Source: an uncultured Opitutia bacterium (GTDB lineage: Bacteria; Verrucomicrobiota; Verrucomicrobiia; Opitutales; UBA953). Taken from it: DNA of 35,285 bases. The stretch is from positions 1 to 35,285 of the forward strand of contig CAISXT010000067.1 of the NCBI GenBank assembly GCA_903889525.1, read 5' to 3'. The position numbers and the translations under genes were made by a program. Below are positions 828-7,920 of this stretch, one piece after another. Below the pieces are notes generated by a model. That model was given only the letters and a program-made list of their open reading frames with translations, searched no databases and had not been told where the DNA came from. Each line of letters opens with the position of its first letter. Position 1 is the stretch's first letter.

Positions 828-2699
828 ATGAAGACGTTTTTCCTCCTGCTGGCCATGCTCGGCTCGGCGGCCACCTCTTTAGCCCGCTCGCCCAACGTGG
901 TGGTGATCTTCATCGATGACATGGGCTACGGGGACATCGGACCTTATGGGGCGACCAAGCAGCGCACCCCCCACCTCGACCGGATGGCCAAGGAAGGGAT
1001 GAAGCTGACTAGCTTCTACGCCGCCCCGGTCTGCTCGGTTTCCCGCGCCCAGATGATGACCGGCTGCTACGGCGCCCGCGTCTCGGTCCCCGGGGTCTAT
1101 TTCCCGGGTCAATCCGTGGGGCTAAATCCATCTGAAATTACTGTAGCAGAGAGACTTAAGGAAAAAGGATATGCCACCCAGATCATCGGTAAATGGCACC
1201 TCGGCGACCAGCCCGAATTCCTGCCCACCCGCCAGGGTTTCGACCACTACCTGGGAATCCCTTACTCCAATGACATGCTCAAGAAAAGCGCTGGCACCAA
1301 GATCCCGGTCGTCCCCCTCCTCCGTGACGAAAAAATCGTCGAGCTGATGGACGGCGACGCCCAGACCCGTCTAGTCGAAATCTATACCAAGGAGGCCGTC
1401 GACTTCATCGGCCGCAACAAGGACCAGCCCTTCTATCTCTACTTCGCCCATAACGCCGTCCACACGCCGATCCACCCGGGCGTGGCCTTCGCCAGCAAAT
1501 CCCAGAACGGTCGCTTCGGCGATTGGGTTGAGGAAGTCGACTGGAGCGTCGGTCAGGTGTTCGAGGCGCTGCGTTCGCAAGGCCTCGATAAGGACACCCT
1601 CGTGATCTTCACCTCCGATAACGGCCCGTGGCTGACCAAAGGTACCGATGGTGGCAGTGCTGGTCCGCTCCGCGGCGGCAAGGGCTCCACTTGGGAAGGC
1701 GGCGTCCGTGAGCCGACGATCGCGTGGTGGCCCGGGCACGTGCCCGCCGGTTCCGTCAACGACGCCGTCGCCGGTACGATCGACCTCCTGCCGACGTTCG
1801 TCTCGCTCGCCGGTGGCACGATGCCCGCGACGCCGGTCATCGATGGCCGCGACATCACGTCGATCTTGCTCGGTCAGTCCAAGGAGTCGGCGCGCGAGGC
1901 CCATTATTATTTTTCCGGCTACGACCTGCAGGCCGTGCGTCAGGGCCGCTGGAAGCTCGCCCTCGCGCCGCAGTCTGAGGGCATGGGCAAGCAGGCGGCC
2001 AAAACCCCGCCGGGACTGCGTCTTTACGACCTCGATGCCGAGATCGGCGAGCAGACCGATGTTGCCGCGCAGCATCCCGATATCGTCGCGAAACTGAAAG
2101 CGCTCGCTGAAAAGATGTCGGCCGAAATCGGCGGAAAGACGCCGACCGCGCGTCGCCCTGCCGGCGAAGTGAAGGGCGCAAAGACGCTCTATCCTACGCT
2201 GGATTATGTTCCGAATGAGGCGAAGAAGTCTGCCGCGAAGCCCGTCGCACTCGCCCAGGCGAAGTCCGGCGACACGATCGCTGCCGCCGTTGCGCCGCAG
2301 GTCGGCCAGAAAGCCTTCACCGTCGCCGTCGCCGTCGAGACCGCGCAACGCGACGCGGTGATCGTCGCGCAGGGTGGACTCATCGGCCATGCGCTCTACC
2401 TCAAAGGCGGGCACGTTGCTTTCGCGGTCCGCCATGGCGCGGATGAAGTCGTCGAGATCCTTTCTCCGGCTGAGGTCAAAGGGTCCTTCGCTGTCACCGC
2501 CAGCCTCGCCGCCGATGGTACAATGAAACTTGTCGTCGCTGGTCAGGAGGCCGTGACGGGCAAAGCCAAGGGCCTGCTACCGCGTCAGCCTGCCGAGGAT
2601 TTCTGCGTCGGGTATGACAACGGTAAGCCCGTGGGCGTCTACGGAAAGCTCATCGTCTTGCAGGGCACCGTCTCCGGCCTCAACGTCACGACCCCATGA
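828..2699 (+). CDS. Secreted sulfatase with atypical CSVSR active-site motif
   Basis: A 623-residue member of the type I (formylglycine-dependent) sulfatase family, predicted to remove sulfate esters from carbohydrates outside the cytoplasm. Residues 1-20 form a signal peptide (MKTFFLLLAMLGSAATSLAR). Metal and active-site motifs are in family order: IFIDDMGYGD (D30, D31), the nucleophile motif C69-S-V-S-R73, GKWHLG (K122, H124), AHNAVHTP (H208, H212), TSDNGPW (D264, N265) and GGKGSTWEGG. The nucleophile motif is normally C-x-P/A-x-R; here the third position is valine. From about residue 460 there is an extra beta-rich domain, as seen on many planctomycete and verrucomicrobial sulfatases. The next gene, a polysaccharide lyase, overlaps by 4 nt, so the two are probably co-translated. 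The start is the only ATG fitting the signal peptide; no Shine-Dalgarno motif precedes it. Confidence 0.92.
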   Translation: MKTFFLLLAMLGSAATSLARSPNVVVIFIDDMGYGDIGPYGATKQRTPHLDRMAKEGMKLTSFYAAPVCSVSRAQMMTGCYGARVSVPGVYFPGQSVGLNPSEITVAERLKEKGYATQIIGKWHLGDQPEFLPTRQGFDHYLGIPYSNDMLKKSAGTKIPVVPLLRDEKIVELMDGDAQTRLVEIYTKEAVDFIGRNKDQPFYLYFAHNAVHTPIHPGVAFASKSQNGRFGDWVEEVDWSVGQVFEALRSQGLDKDTLVIFTSDNGPWLTKGTDGGSAGPLRGGKGSTWEGGVREPTIAWWPGHVPAGSVNDAVAGTIDLLPTFVSLAGGTMPATPVIDGRDITSILLGQSKESAREAHYYFSGYDLQAVRQGRWKLALAPQSEGMGKQAAKTPPGLRLYDLDAEIGEQTDVAAQHPDIVAKLKALAEKMSAEIGGKTPTARRPAGEVKGAKTLYPTLDYVPNEAKKSAAKPVALAQAKSGDTIAAAVAPQVGQKAFTVAVAVETAQRDAVIVAQGGLIGHALYLKGGHVAFAVRHGADEVVEILSPAEVKGSFAVTASLAADGTMKLVVAGQEAVTGKAKGLLPRQPAEDFCVGYDNGKPVGVYGKLIVLQGTVSGLNVTTP

Positions 2700-3889
2700 T
2701 TCGTCATCTCTTCCTCCTGCTCGCCACGACCGCGCTCTTCGCCGCCGAGCCGAGCCGACCTTTCTTCGGAGCCCGCCCAGGTGCCTTGGAAAAGGCGAAG
2801 GCGGCCGCACCCAGCGATGAGTCGGTCGCGAAGGCCCTGAAGAAGCTGGTCACTGATGCGGACAAGGCCCTGGCCGTGGTCCCGCCTTCGGTGATGCAGA
2901 AGGCGAAGCTCCCGCCGAGCGGCGACAAGCATGACTACATGAGCATCGCACCGTACTTCTGGCCGAATCCGGCGACGAAGGACGGGCTGCCGTATCAGCG
3001 CAAGGACGGCAAGGTGAACCCTGAGTCCCGCGAAGAAGCCGTCAACGACACCCTGCGCGCACGCCTGGTCGGTGCGACGGTCGAATCCTTGGCGCTCGGT
3101 TATTATTTCACCCGCGACGAGAAATACGCCGAGCATGCGGCCAAGGTGCTGCGTACCTGGTTCCTCGATCCGGCGACGAAGATGACGCCGCACTTCCGTT
3201 TCGCCCAAGCGATTCCTGGTGTGAACGATGGACGCGGCACCGGCCTCATCGAGGCGCGCGGCTTGGCCGATGCCGCCGACGCCGCGATCCTGCTCGTGGG
3301 TTCCAAGCATTGGTCCGCCGCGGACCAGCAGGCGCTTCAAGCGTGGGGTGAGGTCTATTTCGAGTGGCTCCTCGGCAGCAAGAACGGCCAGGATGAACGT
3401 GCCGCGAAGAATAATCATGGCACCTGGTACGACGTGCAGGCGGTCAAGTGGGCGTTGGTGCTCGGCCGCATGGACAAGGCCAAGGAACTCTGCATCGCCG
3501 CCGGCCCCGGCCGCGTCGGTGTTCAGATTGCGGCGGACGGCAAGCAACCGCTCGAACTCACCCGCACCGCTTCGTTTAGCTACTCGTGCTTCAACCTACT
3601 CGCGTTATCGACGCTCGCCGGACTGAGCGAACATGCCGGCGTCGACCTCTGGCATCACAAGACTGCGGACGGCCGCTCGATCCGCGCCGCGCTTGATTTC
3701 CTCGTGCCTTATCTCGGCAAAGAACCCAAGCCCTGGACCCTGCAGCAGATCCATGAGAGCAAGCCCGATGAAGTCCTGCCCGTCCTGCGCGCGGCCGGAA
3801 TCGCCTATCGCGACGAACATTACGAGAGCCTGCTGAAGGAGTATGCCGACAGTTCGACCAAGAGGTTGCAGCTCCTCGCCCCGCGCTGA
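2696..3889 (+). CDS. Alginate lyase family protein (PF05426-like), secreted
   Basis: A 397-residue protein with an N-terminal signal peptide (about residues 1-17, ending LFAAE) and the helical fold signatures of the alginate-lyase family: PYFWPNP (87-92), DGRGTGLIEARG (178-189), KNNHGTWYDVQ (238-248) and TRTASFSYSCFN (289-300). By comparison with PL5 alginate lyases, N240, H241, R290 and Y296 would be the catalytic set. These enzymes cleave uronate-containing chains by beta-elimination in the periplasm or outside the cell. The ATG overlaps the sulfatase stop codon (ATGA), which implies coupled translation and a shared substrate. A sulfated uronic-acid polymer would fit, but the exact substrate cannot be read from sequence. 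It is convergent with the phosphate transporter gene, with only 8 nt between them and no visible terminator. Confidence 0.88.
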   Translation: MIRHLFLLLATTALFAAEPSRPFFGARPGALEKAKAAAPSDESVAKALKKLVTDADKALAVVPPSVMQKAKLPPSGDKHDYMSIAPYFWPNPATKDGLPYQRKDGKVNPESREEAVNDTLRARLVGATVESLALGYYFTRDEKYAEHAAKVLRTWFLDPATKMTPHFRFAQAIPGVNDGRGTGLIEARGLADAADAAILLVGSKHWSAADQQALQAWGEVYFEWLLGSKNGQDERAAKNNHGTWYDVQAVKWALVLGRMDKAKELCIAAGPGRVGVQIAADGKQPLELTRTASFSYSCFNLLALSTLAGLSEHAGVDLWHHKTADGRSIRAALDFLVPYLGKEPKPWTLQQIHESKPDEVLPVLRAAGIAYRDEHYESLLKEYADSSTKRLQLLAPR

Positions 3890-5046: not shown

Positions 5047-5688
5047 TTAGGCGTATTTGAGAGCGATTTGGAACACGACCTTGCCGGCATCGCGGCAGTG
5101 ATCGATCGCGCGCTCGAGGAGTTCGTAGATATCCTTGAGGACGACGACTTCCTTGGCGTCGACATTGCCCTGGTAGAGGTCGCGGAGGAGGCCCACCATC
5201 AGGCGGTCGGCGTCGCCTTCGATCGTCTGCAGGGTCTCGTAGTCGTCCTGGATTTCTTCGACGTTCGAGAGCTTGCGGAGTTTGCGCACTAGGCTCGCGG
5301 TGACTTCAGTGGCCTGCTCGAGCATCCGCACCTGCTTGTCGACGATGTCGGTCGAGAACTGCGAGGGGCAGATGGCGAGGCGTTCGCCGACCTTCTCGCA
5401 GGTCTTGGGAATCTTATAAAGGGCGTTGGCGAGGGCTTCGATGTCCTCGCGCTCGAGCGGGGTCACGAAGGTTTTGCAGAGTTCCTGGGTGATGGACATG
5501 CCGATGCGCTTATCGACGCGGCGGGCGACGACGAGTTCAGTGAAGCGCTGTTCGAAGTCCGGCTTGCCGACCTGGGCGTAGAGCTTCGAGAGCGACTTCG
5601 CGCTCTTCGCGGCCTCATCGGCGCTGGCTTCTAGCAGTTCGTAGAACTTTTCATCCTTACCGAGAACCTTCTTCAGGAAGTCTTTCAT
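5047..5688 (-). CDS. DUF47 / PhoU-like Pit accessory protein
   Basis: A 213-residue cytoplasmic, almost entirely helical protein of the DUF47 (PF01865) family, a relative of PhoU. Family hallmarks are TFVTPLEREDI near residues 74-84 and the C-terminal helix KDIYELLERAIDHCRDAGKVV (about 185-205), which in PhoU-like proteins carries metal-binding acidic residues. Such proteins are routinely encoded next to PiT transporters and are thought to modulate them. Here the gene comes first and the transporter follows 21 nt later, so the two should be one operon. The ATG at 5688 is followed by MKDFLKKVLG, a normal start for this family. Confidence 0.9.
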   Translation of the reverse strand: MKDFLKKVLGKDEKFYELLEASADEAAKSAKSLSKLYAQVGKPDFEQRFTELVVARRVDKRIGMSITQELCKTFVTPLEREDIEALANALYKIPKTCEKVGERLAICPSQFSTDIVDKQVRMLEQATEVTASLVRKLRKLSNVEEIQDDYETLQTIEGDADRLMVGLLRDLYQGNVDAKEVVVLKDIYELLERAIDHCRDAGKVVFQIALKYA

Positions 5689-5748
5689 GGGTGTGTTGGG
5701 TGATACGCTTCAAGATTCCCCAGGAGGGGGGTGCAAGCCCAGTTCGTC

Positions 5749-5802
5749 ACACATCTGTAACAACCGTAACATCAGGTTATTACGATTGTTACGATTATGT
5801 GT
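5749..5802. promoter_or_regulatory. Long imperfect palindrome with four GTAAC-type half-sites
   Basis: Seen directly: GTAAC occurs at 5757-5761 and 5766-5770. The inverted forms ATTAC (5779-5783) and GTTAC (5788-5792) follow on the other side of a short centre (about 5772-5776). Each arm therefore repeats its half-site with a 9-bp period. The outer ends ACACAT (5749-5754) and ATGTGT (5797-5802) are also complementary, so the whole 54-bp element is an imperfect dyad. It lies in the only intergenic region between the phosphate-import operon and the divergent lipid genes. A regulator operator controlling both is the natural inference. It does not match the 11-bp-period Pho box of proteobacteria. 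Confidence 0.5.
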
Positions 5803-5820
5803 CGGTGGGGTTCAGGCGTA

Positions 5821-5880
5821 AGCGGTTGGCGGTAAGCGGTTAGGCAGAAACCACGCTACTTTTCCAAACCGCCAACCGCT
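5821..5880. repeat. 13-bp perfect inverted repeat in divergent intergenic region
   Basis: AGCGGTTGGCGGT at 5821-5833 is perfectly complementary to ACCGCCAACCGCT at 5868-5880, with a 34-nt spacer. The left arm is followed by a second, partial AAGCGGTT copy (5834-5841), and the right arm by GACCGC, so the element looks built from iterated GCGGTT units. There is no T-run after it on either strand, which argues against an intrinsic terminator. It could be a dispersed intergenic repeat or part of a regulatory site; copies elsewhere in the genome would be needed to decide. The remaining sequence from 5881 to the ATG at 5966 shows no clear promoter hexamers. Confidence 0.45.
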
Positions 5881-5965
5881 GACCGCGAACACCCGATAGC
5901 GCTGTTTCCTTAATAAGACGCCGCCGACGCGGAAACGACACTTTCGTCATCTATGCTCCTGCTCC

Positions 5966-6832
5966 ATGGAAGAAACGACTAAGGTCCCAAGGCAGCATAA
6001 AATCCATTTTCGGACGTTGATTCTGTCCGACCTGCATCTGGGCACCAAGGACGCTCAAGCGCGCGAGCTGCTCGATGTGCTCCGCGGGATTCATTGCGAC
6101 AAGCTCATCCTTAATGGCGACATCATCGATCTGTGGTCGCTGCAGCGCAAAAACCACTGGAGCCCGGCGCATACGGCTGTAATCCGGCGCATCATGAAGA
6201 TGGCGGAGAAGGATGGCACCAAGGTGATTTACCTGCGCGGTAACCACGACGACTTCATCCGCCGCCTGATTCCGCTCGTGCTCGACCGTATCGAGCTCGC
6301 CGAAGAGCACATCCACGTGGCCCAGGACGGCCGCAAGTATCTCTGCATCCACGGCGATGCGTTCGACACCGTGTCGGTGAACCTGCGCTGGCTTGCCGTC
6401 ATCGGCGACATCAGCTACCAAATCCTTCTCGACCTGAACCGCGTCTACAACAAGTGGCGCGCCTGGCGCGGCAAGGAGTACTTCTCCCTCTCTCAGGCGA
6501 TCAAAGCCAAGGTCAAGACCGCGGTGAGTTATATCTCGAGTTTCGAAGAACACCTCCAGACGCTGGCCGCCCGACGTGGCTGCGAAGGCGTGATGTGCGG
6601 GCACATTCACAAAGCAGAGGACCGCATGATCGGCAATGTGCGCTACATCAATTCCGGTGACTGGGTCGAATCGTTGACGGCTGTGGTGGAGGAAGATGAT
6701 GGCCGCCTACGTGTCGTCGAACGGCAGGAGCTCTTGCAGCGTATCGCTGACCGCCGAGCCGCTTTTGAAGCGGCCAAGGTCACGTCGACTTCTTCCGGGG
6801 AAGCCAACGCCACGATTTCGTTCGTCGCCTAA
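5966..6832 (+). CDS. PlcP-like metallophosphoesterase (COG2908, LpxH-related)
   Basis: A 288-residue calcineurin-like phosphoesterase. Metal-binding motifs are complete: SDLHLG (D22, H24), NGDIID (D52), RGNHDD (N93, H94), HGDAFD (H129) and CGHIHKAE (H213, H215). The branch containing the lipid-remodelling phospholipase C PlcP of alpha-proteobacteria shares several segments with it: GNHD rather than the GNRD of true LpxH, the HGDAFD...RWLAVIGD stretch, YFSLSQAIKAKVK, SSFEEH and the terminal NSGDWVESLTAV. PlcP splits phospholipids to diacylglycerol when phosphate is scarce. The next gene is a diacylglycerol-type glycosyltransferase overlapping by 1 nt, and the divergent operon is phosphate import, which supports that role. 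The alternative is a UDP-2,3-diacylglucosamine hydrolase for lipid A. Family membership is firm; the PlcP function is inferred. Confidence 0.8.
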   Translation: MEETTKVPRQHKIHFRTLILSDLHLGTKDAQARELLDVLRGIHCDKLILNGDIIDLWSLQRKNHWSPAHTAVIRRIMKMAEKDGTKVIYLRGNHDDFIRRLIPLVLDRIELAEEHIHVAQDGRKYLCIHGDAFDTVSVNLRWLAVIGDISYQILLDLNRVYNKWRAWRGKEYFSLSQAIKAKVKTAVSYISSFEEHLQTLAARRGCEGVMCGHIHKAEDRMIGNVRYINSGDWVESLTAVVEEDDGRLRVVERQELLQRIADRRAAFEAAKVTSTSSGEANATISFVA

Positions 6833-7920
6833 TGAGCGTTATCCCCGTCCTCACGGCCGGCTTCGGTGAAGGGCACAACGCCGCCGCGCGTGCCATTATC
6901 GAGGCGCTGTCCGCGCGTGCAGGGGTCACCGGCGAACTACATGATCTTTTCCTGACGGCCTACGGCGCCGAGAAAGCGAAGAGTCAGCGTGACAGTTATA
7001 TCGGTATCGCCAATAAATACCCTCGGCTCTGGGGCTGCATGTATACGGCACTCGATCGCCTACCGCTCGTCCGCGCCTCGCTCCCGTTCGTGCGTCCGGT
7101 CGAGCAGACCCTCAACGCAATGCTTGCCGAAAAACGTCCCAAGGTGGTTGTGTCAGCTTACCCGCTCTACAACTATATGATGGCCCGTCGATGGCGCCGG
7201 GACGACCCTGCACGCCCGCGCCTGATTACCGTCGTTACCGATTCCATCTCCGTGAACCGCGCCTGGCATCGGGCTCACTCGGATTGGTTTGTGACGCCGA
7301 ACCAAGCCACGGCCGACGTCATGGTTCGCCAAGGCGTGCCGGCCGCCAAAATTCTGCCGTATGGCTTTCCGGTCTCCGCCAAACTAGCCCCGCGCTCTTC
7401 GGCCCAAGCCGGCGAGCCTCCGCGCGTGTTGCTGATGCTTAATCCCGGCAAGCGCGATGCCGTCGAACTTGCGAGTGCGCTGTCGACGCTCGGGCTGGAA
7501 CTCACGATCACCGTGGGCAAGGACGCCTCCTTCAAGGAAGCCGTCGAACGCGCGGTCGCGGGTCGGGCGGAAGTCCTCGGCTGGACGGATCGTATTCCGC
7601 AGCTGATGCTCTCGAGCCATCTTGTCGTCAGCAAGGCCGGCGGTGCCACCACGCATGAGTGCGTCGCGGCCGGTGTGCCGATGATTATTACCCAGGTTAT
7701 CCCTGGCCAGGAAGCCGGCAATGGCCGTCTCATCGCTGAACACGGCGCGGGTGCCTATGGCCTGACGGCCTCCGATGCGCGTGCAATCATCGCTGATGCT
7801 TTTTCCGGGGACTGGGCGGTGTGGAAACAATGGAAAGCCTCGGTCGACGGCCTCGGCGACGCCGGTGGCGCTGGACGCGTGGCCGAACTGGTGGAGCGTG
7901 AGTTGGCGGTCAGGAGGTAG
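6832..7920 (+). CDS. MGDG-synthase-like glycosyltransferase (GT28)
   Basis: A 362-residue GT-B glycosyltransferase. The N-terminal acceptor half has the MGDG-synthase signature GFGEGHNAAARAI (10-22) and a VVTDSISVNRAWH stretch (134-146) like the TDL..H.WF region of plant and Bacillus diglyceride transferases. The C-terminal donor half has SKAGGATTHECVAAGVPMI (267-285) followed by the characteristic PGQEAGN (291-297). Family members transfer a sugar from a nucleotide donor to diacylglycerol at the membrane, making glycolipids; MurG is a more distant relative. The start codon overlaps the stop of the PlcP-like gene by 1 nt (TAATG), so the two proteins are likely co-produced: one would release diacylglycerol and the other cap it with sugar. 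The sugar donor cannot be predicted from sequence alone. Confidence 0.82.
   Translation: MSVIPVLTAGFGEGHNAAARAIIEALSARAGVTGELHDLFLTAYGAEKAKSQRDSYIGIANKYPRLWGCMYTALDRLPLVRASLPFVRPVEQTLNAMLAEKRPKVVVSAYPLYNYMMARRWRRDDPARPRLITVVTDSISVNRAWHRAHSDWFVTPNQATADVMVRQGVPAAKILPYGFPVSAKLAPRSSAQAGEPPRVLLMLNPGKRDAVELASALSTLGLELTITVGKDASFKEAVERAVAGRAEVLGWTDRIPQLMLSSHLVVSKAGGATTHECVAAGVPMIITQVIPGQEAGNGRLIAEHGAGAYGLTASDARAIIADAFSGDWAVWKQWKASVDGLGDAGGAGRVAELVERELAVRR

Follow-up and report, generated by a model that had tools for sequence, protein, structure and literature searches.

A predicted phosphate-regulated locus for phospholipid-to-glycolipid replacement, pairing plcP with an MGDG-synthase-type glycosyltransferase, in Verrucomicrobiota

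On a contig of an uncultured Opitutia bacterium (Verrucomicrobiota; Opitutales; UBA953), four genes are arranged around a 277-bp gap. On one side lie the genes of a PiT-type phosphate transporter and of a DUF47/PhoU-like protein, presumed to be a PiT accessory or regulator; divergent from them are a gene for a PlcP-type metallophosphoesterase (plcP) and a gene for a family 28 glycosyltransferase (GT28) of the monogalactosyldiacylglycerol (MGDG) synthase/YpfP type, the open reading frames (ORFs) of these two overlapping by 1 nt at base 6832. The window analysed here is the whole contig (CAISXT010000067.1, 35,285 nucleotides), one of the 192 contigs of a 2.24-Mb, 90% complete genome (GCA_903889525.1, labelled G000). 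ORF and Pfam analysis agree with the arrangement described in the initial annotation, which had placed a phosphate-sparing lipid module at 5047-7920; the transporter gene lies outside that span. PiT belongs to its family by a wide score (314.3 bits against a PF01384 gathering score of 33.7), and the DUF47 protein is 92-95% identical in two genomes of the same genus. The gap itself contains a mirrored pair of Pho-box-like repeats (Table 1).

Table 1. Genes and control features around the plcP/DUF47 gap (positions in the window; G019, G068 and G093 are genomes of the same family)
Feature	Position	Strand	Basis
PiT-type phosphate transporter, 375 residues	3898..5025	-	PF01384 (PHO4) 1.2e-93; adjoins DUF47 in G019, G068, G093
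DUF47/PhoU-like protein, 213 residues	5047..5688	-	PF01865 (PhoU_div/DUF47) 9.2e-10
Conserved mirrored control element: GCAAGCCC block, + box, CGTAACATCAG core, - box	5733..5805		14-row box-position layout, ungapped
Pho-box-like 7-4-7 direct repeat toward plcP	5744..5761	+	second-best matrix match in the 35-kb window, 16.6
Pho-box-like 7-4-7 direct repeat toward DUF47-PiT	5788..5805	-	best matrix match in the window, 19.0
PlcP-type metallophosphoesterase, 288 residues	5966..6832	+	Metallophos 7.5e-13; tree, shared blocks
MGDG-synthase/YpfP-type GT28 glycosyltransferase, 362 residues	6832..7920	+	PF06925 (MGDG_synth) 2.7e-15, plus Glyco_tran_28_C

The phosphoesterase is most likely, as judged from its sequence, a phospholipase C of the PlcP type and not LpxH, as had been proposed for it. 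Its alternative identity, LpxH of lipid A synthesis next to a GT28 serving the cell envelope, finds support in public annotation, where PlcP-type proteins are called UDP-2,3-diacylglucosamine diphosphatase, and in the fact that LpxH accounts for the sole solved structures matched by the family profile at E 0.01 (best 2.7e-7). The scores argue otherwise: on the LpxH model NF003743 the protein reaches 38.9 bits, short of the cut-off of 134 and thus outside the LpxH family, with Sinorhizobium meliloti PlcP at 38.1, Pseudomonas aeruginosa PlcP at 55.1 and Escherichia coli LpxH at 364. Moreover, in a tree of 37 chosen rows (19 of the 47 plcP loci of the order, three other verrucomicrobial loci, nine named references, the window protein and five LpxH), the five LpxH rows are split from all 32 PlcP-type rows with 100/98 support. 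The S. meliloti and P. aeruginosa rows we take to be SMc00171, which adjoins an acyl-homoserine-lactone synthase and a LuxR gene, and PA3219, which adjoins a family-1 glycosyltransferase followed by cyaB; the window protein is 38% identical to the former and 48% to the latter. It shares with PlcP the blocks SDxHLG, GNHD, HGDxFD, GHIH and GDWVES, presumably metal-binding, which place it in that class, although the class is defined by function as a Mn-dependent phospholipase C, an activity that is predicted here. The blocks listed in the initial annotation (GNHD, HGDAFD, SLSQ..KAKVK, GDWVES and, in the GT28, PGQEAGN) are all present; GNHD, which it had taken as a mark of PlcP, is not diagnostic by itself, being carried also by a Bacteroidota protein annotated LpxH. 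Finally, a separate lipid A hydrolase, LpxI, is encoded in the same genome (G000:C105), so that the phosphoesterase is not the sole candidate for that step. LpxI occurs in 95 of the 103 genomes of the order, this one included, and LpxB in 98, while none of the 103 has an LpxH above the NF003743 cut-off (LpxG was not searched for); lipid A therefore has another hydrolase than the phosphoesterase, and we regard the LpxH identity as barely credible. Proteins that group with PlcP but bear the LpxH-type diphosphatase name in public records are probably misnamed.

The neighbouring glycosyltransferase falls within the MGDG_synth family (57.3 bits against a PF06925 gathering score of 25). The single sequence matches plant MGD1 at 9.8e-14 and a processive diacylglycerol glucosyltransferase at 1.8e-12; with a 21-row profile of its family, these values become 3.8e-45 and 6e-43, and the match spans most of each enzyme. 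It scores 84.2 bits on the YpfP equivalog model for diglucosyl diacylglycerol synthase (NF010135), where 500 would be needed. The 362-residue protein is thus predicted to be a diacylglycerol glycosyltransferase, sugar transfer being suggested by its family and by its neighbour. Within the order, MGDG_synth matches occur in 35 of the 103 genomes, and each of the seven best (E <1e-9) has plcP no more than about 2 kb away; the next one (G057, 3.9e-9) is on a different contig from its plcP. The tree of the GT28 enzymes has 40 rows (14 linked to plcP, 26 not) drawn from 80 named loci and seven of alignment A1, some genomes being possibly duplicated, and on it the link to plcP requires two changes: one clade is the family of the window enzyme, the other contains f14 (the group that includes genome G013), L185, L200 and L206. 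This topology fits either two recruitments of the enzyme to plcP or one recruitment plus loss.

How constant the arrangement is depends on which half is considered. A PlcP homologue is found in 48 of the order's 103 genomes; in 46 the match is at E <1e-60 (including G100, with an internal stop), the remaining two being a fragment (G048) and a broken gene (G064). In the latter (L078, G064:C25), plcP appears to be interrupted by stop codons, yet its gene neighbours match those of related genomes. Two genomes of the same genus, G019 and G068, have the complete four-gene block, which in G093 is split over two contigs. For the GT28, the named loci are the best 80 of at least 538 relatives, and among the closest 24 listed (L136-L159), 12 carry the block, with PiT truncated at the end of the contig in L141. 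Because it recurs in G019, G068, G093 and these 12 loci, we consider that the arrangement is more than chance. plcP adjoins GT28 in 23 of the closest 24 listed loci, the 24th (L155) beginning inside the GT28 gene. PiT and DUF47 are gone from the locus in eight, L137 keeping a DUF47 remnant; in L144 the end of the contig truncates DUF47, and three contigs start too late to judge. The conserved four-gene arrangement that had been proposed holds therefore for the lipid pair and less well for the transport pair. Over all 80 listed loci, plcP is in the fetched flank of 26. Isolate names among the named relatives, for example LacPavin, suggest lakes.

In other relatives, plcP keeps company with glycosyltransferases of another type and with phosphate genes. 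One protein cluster occurs within five ORFs of the plcP match in 23 of the 47 neighbourhoods of the order (window excluded), its four scanned members being of the GT4 type; such neighbour counts are rough in G+C-rich genomes, where picking ORFs by length produces shadow genes. G001 and G074 share the order PstS-type protein, GT4, plcP, OmpR-type response regulator, histidine kinase, two permeases and ATPase (for every domain, a scan of one genome or the other was extended to its counterpart by cluster membership), and the ATPase of G001 is a PstB above cut-off. In G013, GT4, GT28, plcP and, between the last two, the gene of a YegS-type diacylglycerol kinase form a chain in which the end of one gene overlaps the start of the next. 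The following 15 kb contain a Porin_5 gene, a PstB region, a regulator of OmpR/PhoB type (249 bits, where the PhoB model asks for 296), a kinase and two pairs of PiT and DUF47; the names pstS, pstC, pstA and phoU are given there from position and length only. PstB and PiT share the contig with plcP-GT28 in G066 and G080, 12-18 kb away, and the genome of the window has a PstB above cut-off. From 31 searched genomes whose listed GT28 loci have no flanking plcP, 17 places were fetched, and in four of them a homologue of pst, phoU or phoB is found close to plcP. A PlcP-type gene in Parabacteroides (L230:3986-5907) overlaps by 4 nt a Glyco_trans_1_3 glycosyltransferase of the MJ1255/VC2487 type, a further type of PlcP partner.

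YegS-type diacylglycerol kinase genes also lie beside or near plcP at L047:7057-8001 (the same as L131:3410-4354), L044:6967-7920 and L061:5692-6591, where they perhaps return diacylglycerol to phospholipid. Such kinases are what one would expect if PlcP merely scavenged phosphate from phospholipids, diacylglycerol being recycled by the kinase and any glycolipid being secondary. We find this very improbable for the window, where no kinase adjoins plcP and where the constant plcP neighbour among the closest listed relatives is the glycosyltransferase.

Phosphate control of the lipid pair is suggested by the plcP/DUF47 gap, which holds boxes of the make-up found in the Pho regulon (two pst-like 7-mers, 4 nt apart). 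The boxes were scored with a matrix whose only training data were four 7-4-7 boxes of the family, one per pst promoter, from G000, G019, G068 and G093; some circularity remains, as the training words were chosen with a degenerate consensus set after GTAAC words had been seen in the gap. After the two boxes of the gap, the third-best match in the window drops to 10.3. In a set of 14 loci (L149 left out), the two boxes are spaced by exactly 44 bp in 13, L153 having no clear pair, and for each locus none of 200 first-order Markov resamples of the gap attains the box pair, bearing in mind that the elements of L157 and L159 are identical and that these rarity tests are not independent among related genomes. 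In those 13 loci, the start of the + box and that of DUF47 are separated by 51-61 bp, while the gap ranges from 194 to 508 bp, and the pair of G068, outside this set, is likewise 44 bp apart. Genome by genome, the gap holds matrix ranks 1 and 2 in G019 and G093, and ranks 1 and 3 in G068, the boxes of G093 being low-scoring (11.2 and 10.0) and of other order and spacing. No box was found in the 300 bp before DUF47 in G038 (best 5.0) and G053 (best 3.4), both of which are without plcP. Six of the eight loci that are without PiT-DUF47 retain boxes within 250 bp before plcP among their five best matches, all on the + strand, and these are strong in L137 and L151. In G013, of f14, the top match (16.2) stands before the gene that by its place would be pstC, and the next one (13.9) before the porin gene. 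A degenerate box searched over 44 plcP loci of the order gave 12 of its 24 matches in the 2.6 kb before plcP, where 4.4 were expected, which is at best suggestive, intergenic composition being uncontrolled. The gap had also been read as a repeat of TGTTAC with 9-bp spacing; this reading was dropped, as the repeat is absent from pst promoters. The box is Pho-like by the company it keeps and is a candidate regulator site, and the pair speaks for a predicted phosphate response of plcP-GT28.

Taken together, we consider it probable that plcP and GT28 form a phosphate-regulated unit for replacing phospholipids by glycolipids, a prediction in which the lipid substrate, the lipid product and the response to phosphate are those we infer from the genes and their surroundings. 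At low phosphate, a PhoB-like regulator would bind the mirrored boxes of the plcP/DUF47 gap and so turn plcP-GT28 on. PlcP would then strip the phosphate head group from phosphatidylethanolamine and phosphatidylglycerol, leaving diacylglycerol, to which GT28 would add one or more sugars from nucleotide-sugar donors, yielding a phosphorus-free glycolipid, and the phosphate freed by PlcP would be reused. That GT28 takes the diacylglycerol made by PlcP is itself part of the prediction. PiT-DUF47, governed from this control region too, would serve for phosphate import and would perhaps be lowered when plcP rises. The initial reading, that the locus takes up phosphate and replaces phospholipids, is thus supported, with the reservation that its import half is less constant and may switch in the opposite direction to plcP. 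If correct, some Verrucomicrobiota are predicted to save phosphate through membrane lipid swapping, with a sugar-adding enzyme of a type that differs from the usual Agt, and the plcP/GT28 pair could serve as marker genes for reading this swap in environmental data.

A number of observations weigh against this proposal. In the 37-row tree, the verrucomicrobial rows and one Bacteroidota row form the sister group (98/88) of proteobacterial PlcP, so that the window protein is not nested among the latter, which include the characterised ones. The sister-genus genomes G038, G053 and G082, of the same family, are without plcP and MGDG_synth, G038 and G053 retaining DUF47-PiT. On the regulatory side, the best PhoB-like regulator of the genome (G000:C169) reaches 227 bits, below the cut-off of 296; boxes before plcP are weak in four of the loci that lost PiT-DUF47 (L138, L150, L152 and L154), and in two others (L139 and L142) the five best matches include none near plcP; the strict E. 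coli consensus, CTGTCAT-N4-CTGTCAT, fails to single out the gap. In f14, nothing strong precedes the DUF47 genes or the genes placed as pstS, and the GT4-GT28-plcP operon of G013 holds only rank 4 (10.0). Last, the fetched flank is without plcP at 54 of the 80 listed GT28 loci (some flanks are short, and L155 and L165 begin inside GT28); among 31 genomes of this kind that were searched, 15 have a strong PlcP elsewhere, one a weak match and 15 none. The same GT28 enzyme occurs without nearby plcP in many Verrucomicrobiota, which qualifies the coupling of the two genes.

These last counts, together with the presence of a GT4 beside GT28 in the plcP operon of f14, are what could be expected if PlcP were correctly identified and GT28 were not its partner, glycosylating another lipid or making a glycolipid constitutively, so that adjacency would reflect shared regulation or history only. 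This we hold to be fairly unlikely: the two genes overlap by 1 nt and stay together in almost all of the closest listed loci, the link with plcP is carried by two separate GT28 clades, and a search of the 90%-complete genome with the GT4 of G013 returned only four matches of 27-32% identity, all on one other contig (C128). The replacement unit remains our preferred explanation.

The layout of the control element invites a bolder proposal, for which orfA of S. meliloti, encoding a DUF47 protein, is of interest. The boxes face inward and their 44-bp spacing corresponds to four turns at 11 bp, and it is conceivable, though we would sooner doubt it, that the element acts as a reciprocal switch, PhoB-type binding turning plcP-GT28 on and DUF47-PiT off, and that Verrucomicrobiota on two occasions recruited an enzyme of the MGDG-synthase type to plcP. 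The switch is proposed because the S. meliloti orfA-pit operon is reported to be repressed at low phosphate with a Pho box directly before it (Bardin 1998, as told in PMC3131613). That operon shares with the window a pit-type transporter preceded by a Pho-type box (PMC3131613). If true, such a switch would let the cell stop importing phosphate and, in the same step, begin to take it from its membrane.

Two further genes, of the sulfatase and alginate-lyase types (window 828-3889), overlap by 4 nt and sit between nuoB and PiT. Other ORFs, whose first residues resemble those of this sulfatase/alginate-lyase-type pair, stop 86 bp short of plcP in some of the relatives that have no PiT-DUF47.

In SAR11, roseobacters and Pseudomonas, PlcP is reported to turn phosphatidylethanolamine and phosphatidylglycerol into diacylglycerol for a glycosyltransferase (PMC8231724, PMC8528852, PMC4796936). 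As in the plcP-agt systems of these bacteria and of methanotrophs, where the partner is a GT4, the window has a PlcP-type gene adjoining a predicted glycolipid glycosyltransferase under putative Pho-box-type control (PMC4796936, PMC8528852, PMC8231724, PMC9239053). Unlike them, it has a partner of GT28/MGDG-synthase type, a divergent PiT-DUF47 pair and a mirrored box pair, and it belongs to Verrucomicrobiota. In this phylum, plcP has been reported in one single-cell genome, in a survey that describes six neighbourhood types, the GT4 Agt among them (Sebastian 2015, PMC4796936), whereas verrucomicrobial methanotrophs are described as having no PlcP (PMC9239053). The likeness of the GT28 to the MGD1 and YpfP glycolipid synthases lies in its family profile, which covers most of their length; the window enzyme by itself is distant from MGD1. 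The closest parallel in print comes from several type Ia methanotrophs, in which another putative diacylglycerol glycosyltransferase replaces agt beside plcP, its Bacillus subtilis counterpart making mono- to tetraglycosyl-diacylglycerol (PMC9239053). This is apparently the same enzyme pairing, judging from the paper's reference to the B. subtilis enzyme by name and to the ypfP work; the likeness is taken from that description, these methanotrophs are Gammaproteobacteria, and the available parts of the paper make no mention of PiT-DUF47 (PMC9239053). The idea that the pairing is undescribed must hence be restricted to the phylum, where it may be new: plcP paired with an MGDG synthase or GT28 in Verrucomicrobiota was not found in the open-licence literature. 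The overall scheme is thus known from other bacteria, and what appears to be new to the phylum is the GT28 partner together with the mirrored control site.

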